Positions 22,014 through 50,489 of a stretch of 64,000 nucleotides of DNA are shown here, in pieces. This DNA comes from Clostridium pasteurianum DSM 525 = ATCC 6013 (GTDB lineage: Bacteria > Bacillota > Clostridia > Clostridiales > Clostridiaceae): the NCBI RefSeq assembly GCF_000807255.1, contig NZ_CP009268.1, positions 3,068,384 through 3,132,383 on the forward strand, written 5' to 3'. A program made the translations under genes and the position numbers. The notes below the pieces were generated by a model. The model saw only the letters and a program-made list of their open reading frames with translations, did no database searches and had not been told where the DNA came from. Every line of letters starts with the position of its first letter. Within the stretch, counting starts at the first letter, position 1.

Positions 22014-22130
22014 CCTGACTAACTTGGCGTACTTCAAGTGGGAGTTAAACGCCAAATAAGCCATGCATTTGCAGTTCTAAAATTCAGATGGTGTAAAAGA
22101 ATCCCCACCTGAATTAAGAACTTGCTTCAA
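22014..22130 (-). repeat. Structured repeat element, copy A (mtlA 3' end)
   Basis: Begins TTGAAGCAAGTTCTTAATTC inside mtlA and ends GTTAGTCAGG. It supplies the last 17 codons of mtlA plus the stop. It folds into hairpin 1 (AATTCAG...CTGAATT) and a second stem TTGGCGT/ACGCCAA. The first ~75 bp are identical but for one base to copy B after gatB. I suspect, from memory of such ends, the right end of an IS200/IS605-type element, but have no proof. Confidence 0.7.
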
Positions 22131-23891
22131 TTCATTAATAAATTCATCGTATTTGGAACGATCCAAGAAATTTTTGATTGTAATTATTCTGGAAGATTCA
22201 GCAGATTTTTTTGCTCTCTCCAATAGATTTTCCTGTGTAAAAACCACGTCAGCTCCTGCAGGTATACTGTCTACAGATGAATGTTTAACATCTATATTAG
22301 TAATACCAGCATCCTTTAAAGCTTTTCTCAGTATAGATTCTCCCATGGCTGAAGAACCCATTCCAGCATCACAGGCAAATACAATTAATTTTACCTCTGT
22401 ACTAACAGCTGCTGCAATATTTTCACTAGTTAGCTGTGAAGGATTTTCACCTTTATCTGAAAGTTTTAGCTCATTAATAAATTCATCATATTTTGAGCGG
22501 TCTAAAAAATTTTTAATAGTAATTATTCTGGAAGATTCAGCAGATTTTTTTGCTCTCTCCAATAGATTTTCCTGTGTAAAAACTACGTCAGCTCCTGCAG
22601 GTATACTGTCTACAGATGAATGTTTAACATCTATATCAGTAATACCAGCATCCTTTAAAGCTTTTCTTAGTATAGATTCTCCCATAGCTGAAGAACCCAT
22701 TCCAGCATCACAGGCAAATACAATTAATCTTATATCTGCACTAATTGCTGCTACGTTGCCATCATTAGTTGAAGGTATAGTACTCTGACCTTTACTTGAA
22801 AGTTTCATTTCCTTCATCTTAGCTTGAGCTTCATCAAAATCACTGCCTTCTTCCTTTTGTTTACTTCTTTTAAGTATTACAGAAGATACTAGGAAAGAAA
22901 CCACTGCACCTACCGCAACCCCTGCCACAACTGAAAGCTGACCTCCTTTTGGTGATAAAGCCAGTAATGCAAATATACTTCCTGGCGATGGTGTTGCAAC
23001 TAATCCTGCATGTAATAATACAAATATTAAATCAGCTGACATACCTCCTGCTATTACAGCTAACAGTAGAGCTGGCTTCATTAGTACATATGGGAAATAT
23101 ATTTCATGTATCCCACCTAAAAAGTGAATTATTGCTGCTCCCGGTGCAGATTGTTTAGCAGCCCCCTTACTATATAGACAATAAGCTAATAGTACACCAA
23201 GTCCTGGACCTGGTTCAGGTTCAAGAAGGAAAAATATTGACTTTCCTGCCGCACTTACCTCTTGTATTCCTAGAGGTGAGAAAACTCCATGGTTAATTGC
23301 ATTGTTTAAAAATAATATTTTAGCTGGTTCCACTATAATGGCTATTAGTGGAAGTAATCCATGCTGGGTAATTATTTTTGCTCCCATGCCAAGTCCTATG
23401 GATACTCCTGCCACCAATGGCTCTATAAACTGAAAAGCTGCTAGTGATAGAAGTCCACCTAAAATGCCTGCTGAGAAATTATTAACTAACATCTCAAATC
23501 CTGTTGGTACTTTTCCTTCTACAAGTTTATCAAATTTCTTTATTACAAAACCTCCAAGAGGTCCCATAATCATAGCTCCTAAAAACATTGGTATACTAGC
23601 TCCAATTATAATTCCCGCTGTAGCTATTGCGCCCACTACACCGCCTCTAGTATCATATACAAGCTTTCCACCTTGATATCCAATTAGTAGCGGTAACATA
23701 TATTTCACCATAGGATCTACAAGTTTTGCTAAAGCTTCATTTGGAAACCATCCCGTTGGTATGAATAAAGCCGTAATTAATCCCCAGGCAATAAATGCTC
23801 CTATATTTGGTAAAACCATACCACTTAGAAATGCACCAAATTTTTGAACACTTCCCTTTATTGATGAACTTTCTTTTGCCAATTCTGCCAT
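22077..23891 (-). CDS. mtlA: PTS mannitol-specific EIICB with two IIB domains
   Basis: Membrane permease that imports D-mannitol as mannitol-1-phosphate. 604 residues, against about 470-480 for a normal EIICB. The IIC domain (about 1-345) includes [44 protein letters not shown] and [15 protein letters not shown]. Two IIB domains follow (about 387-483 and 500-596), each with the phosphocysteine loop [15 protein letters not shown]; they differ at one residue (D/N) over about 90. The final 17 residues are encoded by an unrelated repeat element. The IIA function is on the separate mtlF. First gene of the operon; AGGAGG precedes the ATG. Confidence 0.94.
22131..22770 (-). repeat. Tandem duplication of the mtlA IIB segment
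   Basis: Bases about 22131-22431 and 22470-22770 are near-identical at a constant offset of 339 bp (113 codons). Most differences are silent and cluster at the ends, so the duplication is fairly recent or kept alike by gene conversion. Confidence 0.9.
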
Positions 23892-34639: not shown

Positions 34640-34812
34640 TTTCAGGCACCTTATTGCTTTGTCCCAAAAATCACTTTCTGGATTTGTCAATATTTCCGGT
34701 AGTGCCCTACCGCAAGGTATCCGCCGAAATTTCGATACTCCTTGTCCTCGTCAACTTGAGAAATTAGCAAACAGCTTATTTTTTTCCATCATTCTCAAGT
34801 TCTGGCGCTTAA
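34640..34812 (-). ncRNA. glmS ribozyme-riboswitch
   Basis: The 5' untranslated region carries the conserved core: AGCGCCAGAACT at the cleavage site, AGTTGACGAGGA, GGAGTATCGAA, TTCGGCGGATACC and the P4 region. Cleavage should fall between A34809 and G34808. Glucosamine-6-phosphate activates self-cleavage and mRNA decay, closing a feedback loop on GlmS. The 3' boundary is approximate. Confidence 0.95.
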
Positions 34813-34841
34813 TTTACAATTTAAAAGCCTTACACTAATAT

Positions 34842-46851: not shown

Positions 46852-47119
46852 AAGTATCTCCCCCAAAAATTAAATTATTTACTACATATTTTACTGTATC
46901 AACTGAAATCACACAAATAATTTTTTTAAATAAATGATTTCTGATAGACTTTTAACCTTTACACAGGCTAATTTTAATTGATTTTTTATTCATCCAAGCA
47001 AACTCAAATTTTATTTATCATATTTTAATCAGCATATAAATCTTAGTAAACCTATACAGCAAAATTATTGTATCATAATTATTAATATATTCGTTAATGT
47101 TTTTTATAGAAATTAATAA

Positions 47120-47140
47120 AAGAGGGCCATAAGCCCTCTT
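47120..47140 (-). terminator. Terminator of the small-protein cluster
   Basis: AAGAGGGC / GCCCTCTT hairpin followed by T-rich minus-strand sequence, directly after the 47146 gene. Confidence 0.75.
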
Positions 47141-47145
47141 ATTTT

Positions 47146-47370
47146 TTAGTAACCTTTGCAAGGATTTGCACAAGATAGATAGAATAAAGCAATTATAAAT
47201 AATATGCCTTTATCTATTTTTTTGCCAGATCCTTTTTTGGAGAATTGAAGTATTATCAATATTAATAATACTAACAATGGTAAACTACAAGCACAGCCGC
47301 TTACTCCTCCTATTGGTGCTGATGGAACTACCACCTGCACATGATCTTCATGTTTTTTACATTTACTCAT
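47146..47370 (-). CDS. Small membrane protein, family 1 (CANPC tail)
   Basis: 74 residues. A hydrophobic segment (LPLLVLLILIILQFSKKG) and a second one, GILFIIALFYLSCANPC, separated by a short lysine-rich loop with KID(K)G. Same plan as the genes at 47754 and 49555, with the words LILIILQF, KKG and ILFII conserved. AAAGGGGGG ribosome site. Not recognised; loosely recalls small sporulation membrane proteins (YjcZ-like) but I cannot assign it. Confidence 0.75.
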   Translation of the reverse strand: MSKCKKHEDHVQVVVPSAPIGGVSGCACSLPLLVLLILIILQFSKKGSGKKIDKGILFIIALFYLSCANPCKGY

Positions 47371-47432
47371 GATTATACCCCCCTTTTTTTTGGGCTATGG
47401 TTAATGTAACACCCTTTTCCATCTTTTGTTTG

Positions 47433-47448
47433 CTAATATATATTATTC
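47433..47448 (-). promoter_or_regulatory. Shared upstream motif, site 1
   Basis: GAATAATATATATTAG on the minus strand, 63 bp before the 47146 gene. Four genes in the cluster carry GAATARTATATAKTAG-like boxes; possibly a promoter for a sporulation sigma factor. Confidence 0.4.
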
Positions 47449-47468
47449 ATTATTTTTAAAATAGTGTA

Positions 47469-47702
47469 CTATTTTTTATTCTTTGATAGTGAATTTATAA
47501 GGTTAATTATAAAAGCAAGCTGTCTAAAGTCTACATTTTTTAATGCATTTTGTATTTCATTCATATCAACATTTTTTAGTGCCTGTTGTACTTCTCTCAT
47601 ATCTACATTTTTAATCATATCCTGAACTTCATTAGCATCTAAATTTGAATTTGCCTGCTTAGAACTTTTCTCGCTATGGTGATCTGACTTCCTGCTAGAC
47701 AT
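47469..47702 (-). CDS. Small 12-residue-repeat protein, family 2
   Basis: 77 residues, hydrophilic. After a Ser/Lys/His-rich head come three tandem 12-residue units: IKNVDMREVQQA, LKNVDMNEIQNA, LKNVDFRQLAFI. Genes at 48172 and 49153 carry the same module. AGAGGTG ribosome site. Likely helical repeats mediating protein contacts; function unknown. Confidence 0.75.
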   Translation of the reverse strand: MSSRKSDHHSEKSSKQANSNLDANEVQDMIKNVDMREVQQALKNVDMNEIQNALKNVDFRQLAFIINLINSLSKNKK

Positions 47703-47722
47703 TATATCACCTCTTTATTTAA

Positions 47723-47744
47723 AGGATGAGCATAAGCTCATCCT
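47723..47744 (-). terminator. Hairpin between small genes
   Basis: AGGATGAGC-ATAA-GCTCATCCT, perfect 9-bp arms, after the 47754 gene. Confidence 0.65.
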
Positions 47745-47753
47745 ATTAAGCAA

Positions 47754-48050
47754 TTAGTAACCTCTTTTACAAGGATTTGCACAGGACAAATAGAATAAAG
47801 CAATTATAAATAATATGCCATTATCTATTAATTTTCCATGTCCTGAAGAATATGAACTTGAGCTTGAGCTTGAGCAAGAACTTGTTCTTTTACCTTTCTT
47901 ACTGAATTGAAGTATTATTAAAATTAATATTATCAAAGTAGGTAAACTGCAAGCACAACCTTTGCTCCCAAATAAACCTCCTGGGAAACCTACATTTCCA
48001 TATCCTGCATTTGGATAGTATCCACAATTATCTTCATATCTTCTACTCAT
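47754..48050 (-). CDS. Small membrane protein, family 1 (CANPC tail)
   Basis: 98 residues, closest relative of the 47146 product: GCACSLPTLIILILIILQFSKKG, then a Ser-rich run and GILFIIALFYLSCANPC. The Gly/Tyr-rich head (NCGYYPNAGYGNVGFPGG) recalls spore-coat or exosporium small proteins. AGAGGAGGG ribosome site. Confidence 0.75.
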   Translation of the reverse strand: MSRRYEDNCGYYPNAGYGNVGFPGGLFGSKGCACSLPTLIILILIILQFSKKGKRTSSCSSSSSSSYSSGHGKLIDNGILFIIALFYLSCANPCKRGY

Positions 48051-48106
48051 TAATAACCCTCCTCTGGCTAATAATGCATCGTATCATATTTTCCATCTTT
48101 TGTTTT

Positions 48107-48122
48107 CTAATATATACTATTC
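48107..48122 (-). promoter_or_regulatory. Shared upstream motif, site 2
   Basis: GAATAGTATATATTAG, 57 bp before the 47754 gene. Flanks also match site 1 (TTTTAAAA..AATG before it and ACAAAAGATGGAAAA after). Confidence 0.45.
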
Positions 48123-48171
48123 ATTATTTTAAAAAGTGTGATATCATAAATTATATTTTAATTTATGTTTT

Positions 48172-48558
48172 CTATTTAGTTTTCGTCTTGTTTGAGCCAT
48201 ATATCTCCATTACAACCTTTAATAATTCTGCCTTATCAGAGTTTACCAGTGTATTTATAGACCTTATTATTTCCTCTCTACTTGTACTTTTTTGCTTCCT
48301 AGGTTCATCGATACTTTCATCACTAGTAACATTATCATTATTATAGTTTTCTTCAGTATTTATATTTTCAACAACATTTGTCTGTCTTTCTGTATTATTC
48401 ATTTTCCCTAATAATGATGAAACCTGGTTAATATCTATATTACTTAGAAGCTGAGCTATATTGCCAAAATTAAAAGAACCAGTATTACTGTTATTGACAG
48501 CATTGTTATTGCTATCCTTTGATCTCACACGCTTATGATGACTTCTATGCCTTGACAT
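48172..48558 (-). CDS. 12-residue-repeat protein, family 2
   Basis: 128 residues: a basic His/Arg/Lys head, an Asn-rich stretch, then one repeat unit (LSNIDINQVSSL, LGKM), a Glu/Asn-rich linker and a C-terminal helix EEIIRSINTLVNSDKAELLKVVMEIYG (parts). The C-terminal block resembles the end of the 49153 product (NAIKPMVSAERGDLIDIILQIY). GAGGAGGG ribosome site. Confidence 0.72.
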   Translation of the reverse strand: MSRHRSHHKRVRSKDSNNNAVNNSNTGSFNFGNIAQLLSNIDINQVSSLLGKMNNTERQTNVVENINTEENYNNDNVTSDESIDEPRKQKSTSREEIIRSINTLVNSDKAELLKVVMEIYGSNKTKTK

Positions 48559-48600
48559 ACAATTCCCTCCTCAGATATATATTTTTATAAAGATTTATTT

Positions 48601-48960
48601 TTAATCTGTACTGGTTTCCCTAAATTTCTCTTCTTTTTCTTTGCAAAAGAAAATTACTGCAACTATTACTACAATAAATAAGGCATTACCTCCCAGCATT
48701 TTTCCAAATCCTTTATTCTTGCCAAAATTAAAAAATTGATTACTATTAAAAGCTTCCGATGTTACATGTTTTTTCTTATTATGTGCCGAAGCATATTTAC
48801 CTTTTGAGGACTTTTGTGCAAAATTTGATTGATTTTGGAAATTAAAATTGCCAAATTTTTTGCCTTTACCAAAACCAAATATAACAATTAAAACCAATGC
48901 CCATACTATTAGCTTATTAGATCCACCACCTGAATTGCCAAGCAGATCTCCTATTCCCAT
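48601..48960 (-). CDS. Small membrane protein, family 3
   Basis: 119 residues from MGIGDLLG with GGAGG upstream. Two hydrophobic segments (NKLIVWALVLIVIFGFG and ALFIVVIVAVIFFC) flank a basic, Asn/Phe-rich middle (KKFGNFNFQNQSNF). Shares the (N)NKLI..L..VI opening with the 49916 product. Confidence 0.7.
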   Translation of the reverse strand: MGIGDLLGNSGGGSNKLIVWALVLIVIFGFGKGKKFGNFNFQNQSNFAQKSSKGKYASAHNKKKHVTSEAFNSNQFFNFGKNKGFGKMLGGNALFIVVIVAVIFFCKEKEEKFRETSTD

Positions 48961-48992
48961 AAAACTTCCTCCTTTCATATCTTTAAAAGGTT

Positions 48993-49008
48993 CTATAATA
49001 TATTATTC
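48993..49008 (-). promoter_or_regulatory. Shared upstream motif, site 3
   Basis: GAATAATATATTATAG, 33 bp before the 48601 gene. Confidence 0.35.
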
Positions 49009-49055
49009 TAAACTTATAAATTTGCTCTTATGCTCGTCACAAAATCCAAAAAAAA

Positions 49056-49088
49056 TTAGTACCGAGAATAAATTCAATTCAGTACTAA
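49056..49088 (-). terminator. Terminator after the 49153 gene
   Basis: TTAGTAC / GTACTAA stem with a run of eight T on the minus strand. Confidence 0.6.
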
Positions 49089-49152
49089 CAAAATAATCTT
49101 CCTATTATCAAAATCATTTTAAATTTTGCGTATTAATTTTCACATAAATATA

Positions 49153-49509
49153 CTATTTTAATATTCTACTTATAGTGTAAATTTGCAATATTATATCTAT
49201 AAGATCGCCTCTTTCAGCACTTACCATAGGTTTTATTGCATTTAAAACTTCATATTCTCTCCCTCTTCCATAAAAAGGAGAAGCTTCATATTCTGGTGAA
49301 GCATCACCTCTTCCACCGCCACCTGAAAAGGATCCTAACAGTGAAGATATTTGATTCATATCTATAGATCCTAATAGATTCATTATTTGACTTATATCAA
49401 CATTTTTTAATATCCCTGATAAATTCTCAAAGTCTATATTTCCAAATCCTTCATTTTTCCCATCTATAACTTCTTCCCCCTCTATAGGTTCATCTTCATT
49501 AATTGACAT
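49153..49509 (-). CDS. 12-residue-repeat protein, family 2
   Basis: 118 residues from MSINEDEPIEGEE with AGAGGTG upstream. Acidic head, then LKNVDISQIMNL, LGSIDMNQISSL, LGSF, a Gly-rich spacer, and a helical C-terminus. A start 36 nt earlier lacks a site. Confidence 0.72.
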   Translation of the reverse strand: MSINEDEPIEGEEVIDGKNEGFGNIDFENLSGILKNVDISQIMNLLGSIDMNQISSLLGSFSGGGGRGDASPEYEASPFYGRGREYEVLNAIKPMVSAERGDLIDIILQIYTISRILK

Positions 49510-49554
49510 ACTATCACCTCTTAAATGTAGATGAGTATAATTCACTCCAATAAA

Positions 49555-49743
49555 TTAATAAAAACTATTTCTCATACGGGATTTATAACAGCATAAAAAT
49601 AATAATGTAATTATAAATAGTATATCATTATCTATTAACTGCTTACTTTCCCCAGAACTTGACTTTTCTCCTTTTTTCCCAAATTGGAGAATTATTAATA
49701 TCAGTATTGTAAGTGTATTTAAATTACAACAGTTTTCAAACAT
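49555..49743 (-). CDS. Small membrane protein, family 1
   Basis: 62 residues: LTILILIILQFGKKG, a Ser/Lys loop, LIDNDILFIITLLFLCC and a basic tail. It is the most diverged family 1 copy and lacks the CANPC tail. GGAGGAG ribosome site. Adjacent to the 49153 gene in the same direction. Confidence 0.7.
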   Translation of the reverse strand: MFENCCNLNTLTILILIILQFGKKGEKSSSGESKQLIDNDILFIITLLFLCCYKSRMRNSFY

Positions 49744-49822
49744 TATATTACCTCTCCTCCAGGATATACAGTCAAATATCAGTCATCTAAAATAACAATT
49801 TCTATAGAATATAATAAACAGT

Positions 49823-49851
49823 CCTTATGATAGTAACTTACTACCATAAGG
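49823..49851. terminator. Hairpin after the 49916 gene
   Basis: CCTTATG-A-TAGTA...TACTA-C-CATAAGG imperfect stem. Confidence 0.5.
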
Positions 49852-49915
49852 CTTTATTTAATTACTATGATATGAACAAATCAGCAATTGCCATCTATTT
49901 TTACAAATTCCTTAA

Positions 49916-50242
49916 TTAGTAATCACAATATGAATAGTCTTCATCTGTACCTCTGACAGCTGATGGATCTGTATTAACTTTAATTATATTTGTATTTCCA
50001 CCTTTATTACCAATACCAAGTACCAAAGCAAGAATTACCAATATTGGAATTAATGAAGTACCGGCAACTCCAGATCCAGGGCGTCTTCTCCTTCTTCTGC
50101 AACAATTATCTACTGGATAATAAGAGCACCCTTGATTACCTCCTCCGCAGAAGCAAAACAAAACAAATATTAATATTATAATTATAAGTTTGTTATTTTT
50201 TTTCCCTGCGCCTAAGAAATCACTACTACATTTAGAACTCAT
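49916..50242 (-). CDS. Small membrane protein, family 3
   Basis: 108 residues: NNKLIIIILIFVLFCFCGGG, a cysteine- and arginine-rich patch (NCCRRRRRRPGSG), a second hydrophobic segment LIPILVILALVLGIG, and an acidic tail. AGGAGG ribosome site. First gene of the cluster; the six-Arg run would lie between the membrane segments. Confidence 0.7.
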   Translation of the reverse strand: MSSKCSSDFLGAGKKNNKLIIIILIFVLFCFCGGGNQGCSYYPVDNCCRRRRRRPGSGVAGTSLIPILVILALVLGIGNKGGNTNIIKVNTDPSAVRGTDEDYSYCDY

Positions 50243-50290: not shown

Positions 50291-50306
50291 CTACTATATA
50301 TTATTC
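50291..50306 (-). promoter_or_regulatory. Shared upstream motif, site 4
   Basis: GAATAATATATAGTAG, 49 bp before the 49916 gene. Confidence 0.4.
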
Positions 50307-50489
50307 CTGCTATTATTAATTGACACATATAACTTGTACTTTAAAAATAATTATTAATACTTAAGAAGGATTTTTTAGTTATTATGCAGAAATAATTATC
50401 AATAGAATATTACCTTATACTAAATACTAAGTTAATTGTATAAAAATCTATAGCTGTTATTTTACTTTACTAATTAGCTTATTATATAG

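Follow-up and report, generated by a model that had tools for sequence, protein, structure and literature searches.

A clustered and apparently multiplied three-gene module of Clostridiales with a probable role in the spore outer envelope

The present work surveys a run of eight small genes in a stretch of 64,000 nucleotides (the window) from Clostridium pasteurianum DSM 525, positions 3,068,384 to 3,132,383 of NZ_CP009268.1, the single contig of 4,352,101 bases which makes up the genome. The eight genes look like a multiplied and moved copy of a three-gene set, which in many other genera of the order Clostridiales stands as a single set beside engB. By the explanation that we consider the probable one, the set is a late mother-cell module which builds part of the outer envelope of the spore. 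The order was sampled by 225 genomes from 56 genera, and genes are called lonB, lonA, engB, bactofilin and perR here by reading of the sequence. An earlier note on the window had described the cluster as three interleaved families of membrane and soluble partners which assemble together, possibly on the forespore, spore coat or cell membrane; its observation is confirmed, and its interpretation is supported in part.

The cluster occupies positions 47146-50242 and comprises eight consecutive open reading frames (ORFs), all on the minus strand and of 62-128 codons, just as the earlier note had them; by rising coordinate the lengths are 74, 77, 98, 128, 119, 118, 62 and 108 codons. The ribosome sites that it reported are also there: a Shine-Dalgarno-like sequence, read from the sequence, lies ahead of each of the eight ORFs. 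Along the direction of transcription the families follow the order 3-1-2-3-2-1-2-1. The features, with the evidence for each in brackets, are as follows.

49916..50242, minus strand: family 3 copy a, 108 residues, first gene of unit 1 (ORF, composition, profile match)
49555..49743, minus strand: family 1 copy a, 62 residues, two short hydrophobic segments, 4 cysteines (ORF, composition, tree)
49153..49509, minus strand: family 2 copy a, 118 residues, cysteine-free (ORF, AlphaFold2, tree)
48601..48960, minus strand: family 3 copy b, 119 residues, first gene of unit 2 (ORF, composition, profile match)
48172..48558, minus strand: family 2 copy b, 128 residues (ORF, local alignment, tree)
47754..48050, minus strand: family 1 copy b, 98 residues, 6 cysteines, first gene of unit 3 (ORF, composition, AlphaFold2)
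47469..47702, minus strand: family 2 copy c, 77 residues, repeat without the C-terminal part (ORF)
47146..47370, minus strand: family 1 copy c, 74 residues, 5 cysteines, unit 4 (ORF, composition)
50292..50322, minus strand: promoter-like motif of unit 1, CA-N14-GAATAATATATAGTA with TGTGT ahead (motif scan)
48994..49024, minus strand: promoter-like motif of unit 2, one mismatch (motif scan)
48108..48138, minus strand: promoter-like motif of unit 3, exact (motif scan)
47434..47464, minus strand: promoter-like motif of unit 4, one mismatch (motif scan)
47723..47744, minus strand: hairpin in the gap which separates family 1 copy b from family 2 copy c (gap table)
47118..47140, minus strand: GC-rich hairpin followed by a T run, 3' of the last gene, a probable terminator (by eye)

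The reality of the families was assessed by local alignment, with scores expressed in standard deviations (s.d.) above 300 shuffles. All three pairs of family 1 score between 17.5 and 33.4 s.d., and the pairs of family 2 score 4.8, 10.5 and 14.1 s.d., with 0/300 shuffles as high for any of them. Both sequence signatures described for family 1 exist, LILIILQF.KKG in all three copies as had been claimed, and ILFIIALFYLSCANPC in the two downstream copies only, the first copy having ILFIITLLFLCCYKS instead. The 12-residue repeat ascribed to family 2 is real and is clearest at 47469-47702. The direct pair of family 3 scores 3.4 s.d., with 2/300 shuffles as high, and is matched or exceeded by pairs drawn across families: family 1 copy b with family 3 copy b (5.0 s.d., 0/300), family 1 copy c with family 3 copy a (4.2 s.d.) and family 2 copy a with family 3 copy b (3.8 s.d.). 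Since its pair scores no better than some of these, the window alone does not show family 3 as a family, and hhalign gave no match between the genus-level profiles of its two copies (22.6% over 17 columns). Compared with the single-copy family 3 of other genera, however, each of these profiles, built from 6-7 sequences, gives a match along almost all of its length (99.1% and 98.9%, scores which hydrophobic segments inflate). For that reason family 3 is credible through its relatives, and the two copies look like diverged descendants of one ancestor. The proposed three families in the order 3-1-2-3-2-1-2-1 thus stand by direct alignment for families 1 and 2, and for family 3 only by way of relatives. 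Merging families 1 and 3 was rejected, as the similarity of their profiles (74.8%) spans just 16 columns. An iterated family 3 profile, which drifted into family 1, is excluded from the genome counts; labels derived from it did enter the neighbourhood and upstream-motif tables.

In many other genera a set in the order family 3, family 1, family 2, with one to several family 1 genes, adjoins lonB-lonA-engB, and its common further neighbours are a bactofilin-like gene on the opposite strand and a perR-like gene. Some genera, such as the kin of Caloramator, carry the set on the opposite strand to engB. This recurrence of the 3-1-2 set in other genera of the order bears out the idea that membrane-like and soluble partners are kept together.

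A family 1 profile built from the three copies of the window matches 35/206 genomes of the window's family (E 0.01). Wider profiles searched over the order at E 0.001 find family 1 in 53, family 2 in 103 and family 3 in 108 of the 225 genomes, families 2 and 3 together in 63, all three in 40 and any family in 150, a union which includes weak matches near the threshold and comes from alignment searches run without control genomes. The profiles of families 3 and 2 match 36 to 39 of the 56 genera. Among the named holders of family 1 are C. acidisoli, C. akagii, C. oryzae, C. rhizosphaerae, C. caldaquaticum, Caloramator quimbayensis and Hathewaya massiliensis. The profiles underestimate the distribution. 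In 73 of the 75 genomes which lack any profile match, engB could be located, and 40 such loci were examined with a rule combining cysteine content, hydrophobic segments and a soluble ORF with a basic start; the set was found in 17 of the 40 by this rule and in two more (G007, G016) by eye. In G120, G153, G155 and G202 the fetched stretch ends inside a cysteine-rich first gene after engB, and G171 (1.516 Mb) retains a family-3-like and a family-2-like gene there. A class-wide sample of 391 genomes searched at E 1e-5 yielded family 1 in 5 and family 2 in 6, all from the window's own family; because the profiles miss most of the 19 members of that family in the sample, absence outside the order is not proved. 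Solitary or short family 1 copies also lie off the main cluster, in L051 (G089), L059 (G115), L066 (G117) and L069 (G116), the matches in L066 and L069 spanning several stops. In L044 (G149:C44, 1105-1281) the match to family 1 copy a has one stop codon in its aligned stretch, and this copy may be broken or have a later start.

The eight-gene order is identical in all five genomes of the window's genus that were examined. In these genomes and in G184, from another genus, the 1.5 kb downstream of engB contain no such genes; in C. pasteurianum, engB maps to 2.856 Mb, some 260 kb away from the cluster. A related set, 3-2-3-2-1-2, is present in G184, where it runs up to a contig end; another contig of this genome has an extra family 1 gene. 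Within the cluster, CA-N14-GAATANTATRTANTA occurs with at most one mismatch ahead of family 3 copies a and b and family 1 copies b and c. Because one such promoter-like motif heads each of them, the cluster parses into four promoter-led units, 3-1-2, 3-2, 1-2 and 1, that is, one whole module and three partial ones. These units would have arisen by duplication of the module with losses, which refines the repeated duplication of interleaved families envisaged earlier: it is a three-gene module that seems to have been multiplied. In trees of 5-6 genomes, family 2 copies a, b and c and family 1 copies a and c need one change each and family 1 copy b needs two, with weak support for family 2 copy b (76/28) and family 1 copy c (77/77). 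The gene copies are probably old, since the trees group all of them but family 1 copy b each as one set over these genomes. Family 2 copy a falls together with the single-copy members of family 2 from other genera (97/96), a placement one would predict were 3-1-2 the original unit.

The time at which the module is expressed is read here from its promoters. The full motif, GTGTCA-N13-15-GAATANTAT[AG]TANTA, lies upstream of 24/39 family 3 genes, and its -10 part, with at most one mismatch, upstream of 30/39. The same loci supplied 401 control genes, for which the corresponding numbers are 2 and 5, and both controls with the full motif are family 3 genes missed by their label. Many of the 39 loci had served to derive the motif, and the later engB loci provide a cleaner test: the motif is present at 13 of the 17 loci with a set by rule and at 1 of the 23 others, which itself carries the first gene of the set. 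Nine of the 39 family 3 genes have at least two mismatches to this variant -10 part. They were compared with a sigma-K-type consensus, mACm-N16-CATANNNTA, with spacings of 15-17 allowed; the N16 form is quoted in PMC5749712. Five of the nine (L038, L044, L167, L168 and L170) have a mismatch-free site, three at spacing 16 and two at spacing 15, equalled in at most 1/200 shuffles each, and sites of this kind precede 4/401 controls. The -35 of these canonical promoters reads AACA, AACC or CACC, and in C. difficile the -35 has AC for sigma K and ATA for sigma E (PMC3789822). One of the five, L044, is from the window's genus; its sigma-K site keeps the distance from the gene at which GTGTCA stands in the four remaining genomes. 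We conclude that the two forms appear to replace one another, and that the factor reading them would be sigma K or, less likely, sigma E. The link to sporulation suggested in the earlier note gains support in this way, by inference from the promoters, and a protein of the mother-cell side, in the coat or exosporium, suits the data better than one of the forespore.

The composition of the proteins differs from family to family. Family 1 (43 proteins) has a median length of 86 residues, a mean of 10.1% cysteine and two hydrophobic segments in 33/43 members, as counted by a threshold chosen in the analysis. By the same threshold two segments occur in 25 of the 26 members of family 3, which average 4.7% cysteine and are also rich in arginine and histidine; copy a, for example, has two segments, RRRRRR in its middle, 7 cysteines in all and NTNII close to its end. 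Family 2 is cysteine-free in 34/37 members, and none has two hydrophobic segments. Its copy a combines helical repeats of 12 residues with a C-terminal helical region, modelled by AlphaFold2 at low confidence (mean predicted local distance difference test score, pLDDT, 56) as short helices at 27-35, 39-47 and 51-58, one per 12 residues, and then a helical pair. Family 1 copy b is modelled, also at low confidence (mean pLDDT 56), as two helices of 16 and 14 residues.

A mechanism consistent with these properties may be proposed for the three-protein module, which the mother cell would transcribe at a late stage of sporulation, using sigma-K-type promoters. Families 1 and 3, cysteine-rich and with two short hydrophobic segments, would be directed to the membrane surrounding the forespore or to the insoluble coat or exosporium and may be cross-linked there through their cysteines. 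Family 2, a soluble protein which starts with basic residues and continues into the helical repeat and the C-terminal helices, would act as a cytosolic partner which gathers families 1 and 3. In the window's genus the engB site no longer has the set, which occurs at another place in the form of the four promoter-led units. A more ambitious version, which we put forward tentatively and hold to be somewhat doubtful, is that of a dedicated and so far unrecognised clostridial spore layer or anchor, in which a cysteine-linked hydrophobic sheet rests on a soluble repeat scaffold, and which is ancestral to the order, retained at one site in many genera and multiplied with a division of labour in the window's genus.

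Several observations weigh against a role in the late mother cell and the envelope. The two modelled family 1 helices are short for membrane spans. No set was seen on the engB strand within about 3 kb after engB in G126, G129, G134, G188 and G192. Of these, G129 is presumably C. ljungdahlii and G126 presumably C. kluyveri, a spore former, so spores can apparently be made without the module in some species. As to the promoters, the most frequent form, GTGTCA..GAATA, mostly has 2-3 mismatches to the sigma-K consensus, a level matched by many shuffles, and the best sigma-K match in the window's cluster has 2 mismatches; because of this departure it is possible that another factor reads GTGTCA..GAATA. 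Nor does the motif mark a broad coat regulon. With at most one mismatch it occurs 18 times in the genome of C. pasteurianum, 4 of these in the cluster, versus 8 for the reversed control, leaving 14 versus 8 outside the cluster. In 11 other genomes there are 113 matches versus 71, of which about 20 lie in clusters by hand count, leaving about 93 versus 71. Many of the matches inspected (18 in the own genome, 10 in other genomes, of which L127 was not judged, and 15 more) fall within genes or before unrelated ones.

The promoter discrepancy is also what recommends a module that serves the envelope of vegetative cells or the response to stress, under the control of a factor which reads GTGTCA-N15-GAATA and perhaps tied to the bactofilin-like or perR-like neighbours, and the arrangement of engB, module, bactofilin-like and perR-like genes does recur in many genera. 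We regard it as unlikely, however: the window's genus has kept the same motifs with the set away from that neighbourhood, and five relatives carry a mismatch-free sigma-K site at about the same place. An assignment to another stage or compartment of sporulation, whether an early mother-cell role under sigma E or one in engulfment or germination at the outer forespore membrane, in place of a structural layer of the envelope, seems rather improbable. Two hydrophobic segments would suit membrane proteins of that kind, but the -35 sequences of the canonical promoters are of the sigma-K type, and a high cysteine content is more usual in proteins of the coat and exosporium. Examples of the latter are CsxA and CsxB (PMC4942563). 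The least probable reading by far is that of small secreted or membrane-active peptides, such as bacteriocins or toxin-antitoxin peptides. The proteins are indeed small, hydrophobic, cysteine-containing and encoded in tandem, and one copy resembles a YxzE-like putative bacteriocin at 15.0 bits, far below the cut-off of 40. The conservation at one site across many genera and the retained soluble partner speak against peptides of this type, and no exporter or immunity gene was recognised by eye beside the set, no family search having been directed at such genes.

Further elements accompany the module. GC-rich hairpins of at least 8 base pairs, at least 5 of them G-C, are present in 24/31 gaps between families 1 and 2 across genera (hand count), often reading GGAGGGCU-loop-AGCCCUCC, and may set the ratio of the products; of the two such gaps in the window, the one at 49510-49554 is without a hairpin. 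A leader at 47371-47402, about ACCATNGCCCA..GGGGGG, which precedes the last or only family 1 gene and is conserved in several genera (for example in L056, L060, L062 and L076), might fold together with the ribosome site into a small hairpin. Elsewhere in the C. pasteurianum genome, L099 and L100 (near 3.174 and 3.175 Mb) are an exception among the motif matches: they form a tandem pair of almost identical genes for 263-residue DUF7852 (PF25250) proteins, each with a similarly shaped promoter-like site, GTACA..GAATATNATGTAAT, and the pair may belong to the same regulon. The other exception is in G191, where genes for 100 and 299 residues (L134, L135) lie behind the same promoter motif.

The statement of the earlier note that no described system could be recognised stands within the libraries and papers searched. 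None of 28 proteins (8 from the window and 20 from relatives) exceeds a curated Pfam or NCBIfam cut-off. The best sub-threshold match of family 2 is FliG_C (PF01706), which shares with it the character of a short-helix repeat, with 21.4 bits (E 3.2e-4) in L071 and 15.6 bits in copy c of the window; the other 8 family 2 proteins scanned gave no match to it at the thresholds used. YlbD_coat (PF14071) matches three family 2 proteins over the helical part, at 13.9, 10.8 and 15.5 bits. Membership in either family was rejected, since the gathering scores of 23.3 and 27 were not reached, and a fibrinogen chain (E 0.19), which came up when PDB sequences were searched for family 2 copy b alone, was taken as chance. 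A literature search, in which subscription journals were mostly outside coverage, found no description of the module, and for the C. acetobutylicum gene numbers near engB it gave only papers which name CAC2634, a fur-family regulator. Rfam recognises in the window only a glmS ribozyme, located outside the cluster (34640-34820, minus strand, 110.7 bits) and ahead of an ORF read as glmS. At 22077-23891 a PTS-like (phosphotransferase system) protein ends, by eye, in two nearly identical tandem domains.

Clostridia lack many of the coat proteins of Bacillus (PMC3533761). The three-gene set, which has a strict promoter motif and lies outside Pfam and NCBIfam, supplies envelope candidates, and in species with a single module these could be deleted at one locus. 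For C. beijerinckii NCIMB 8052 an RNA-seq time course through sporulation has been published (PMC3395874). The clostridial spore-surface proteins closest in description are CsxA, CsxB and CsxC of the C. sporogenes exosporium (PMC4942563, PMC7333573), which share with the module a cysteine-rich composition and, if the location proposed here is right, a place in the spore outer layer. This composition is found in family 1 (10.1%) and family 3 (4.7%) but not in family 2, and the Csx proteins, likened here by description, have 151-299 residues and 10-25 cysteines. The washed exosporium of C. sporogenes also contains an uncharacterised protein of 8.4 kDa with 12 cysteines (UniProt G9EWH5, PMC4942563). 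In the genus g23, which may or may not include C. sporogenes, the family-1-like genes of the 8 genomes examined encode 6.7-9.9 kDa and 9-18 cysteines, and none has exactly 8.4 kDa with 12 cysteines; the exosporium protein, compared by size class, is a lead only. The appendage proteins of C. taeniosporum, again compared by description, are larger, with up to 564 residues, repeats, DUF11 and collagen-like parts, yet their genes, which serve a spore surface structure, share with the present cluster the grouping of related genes, and have several putative sigma-K promoters (PMC5749712).

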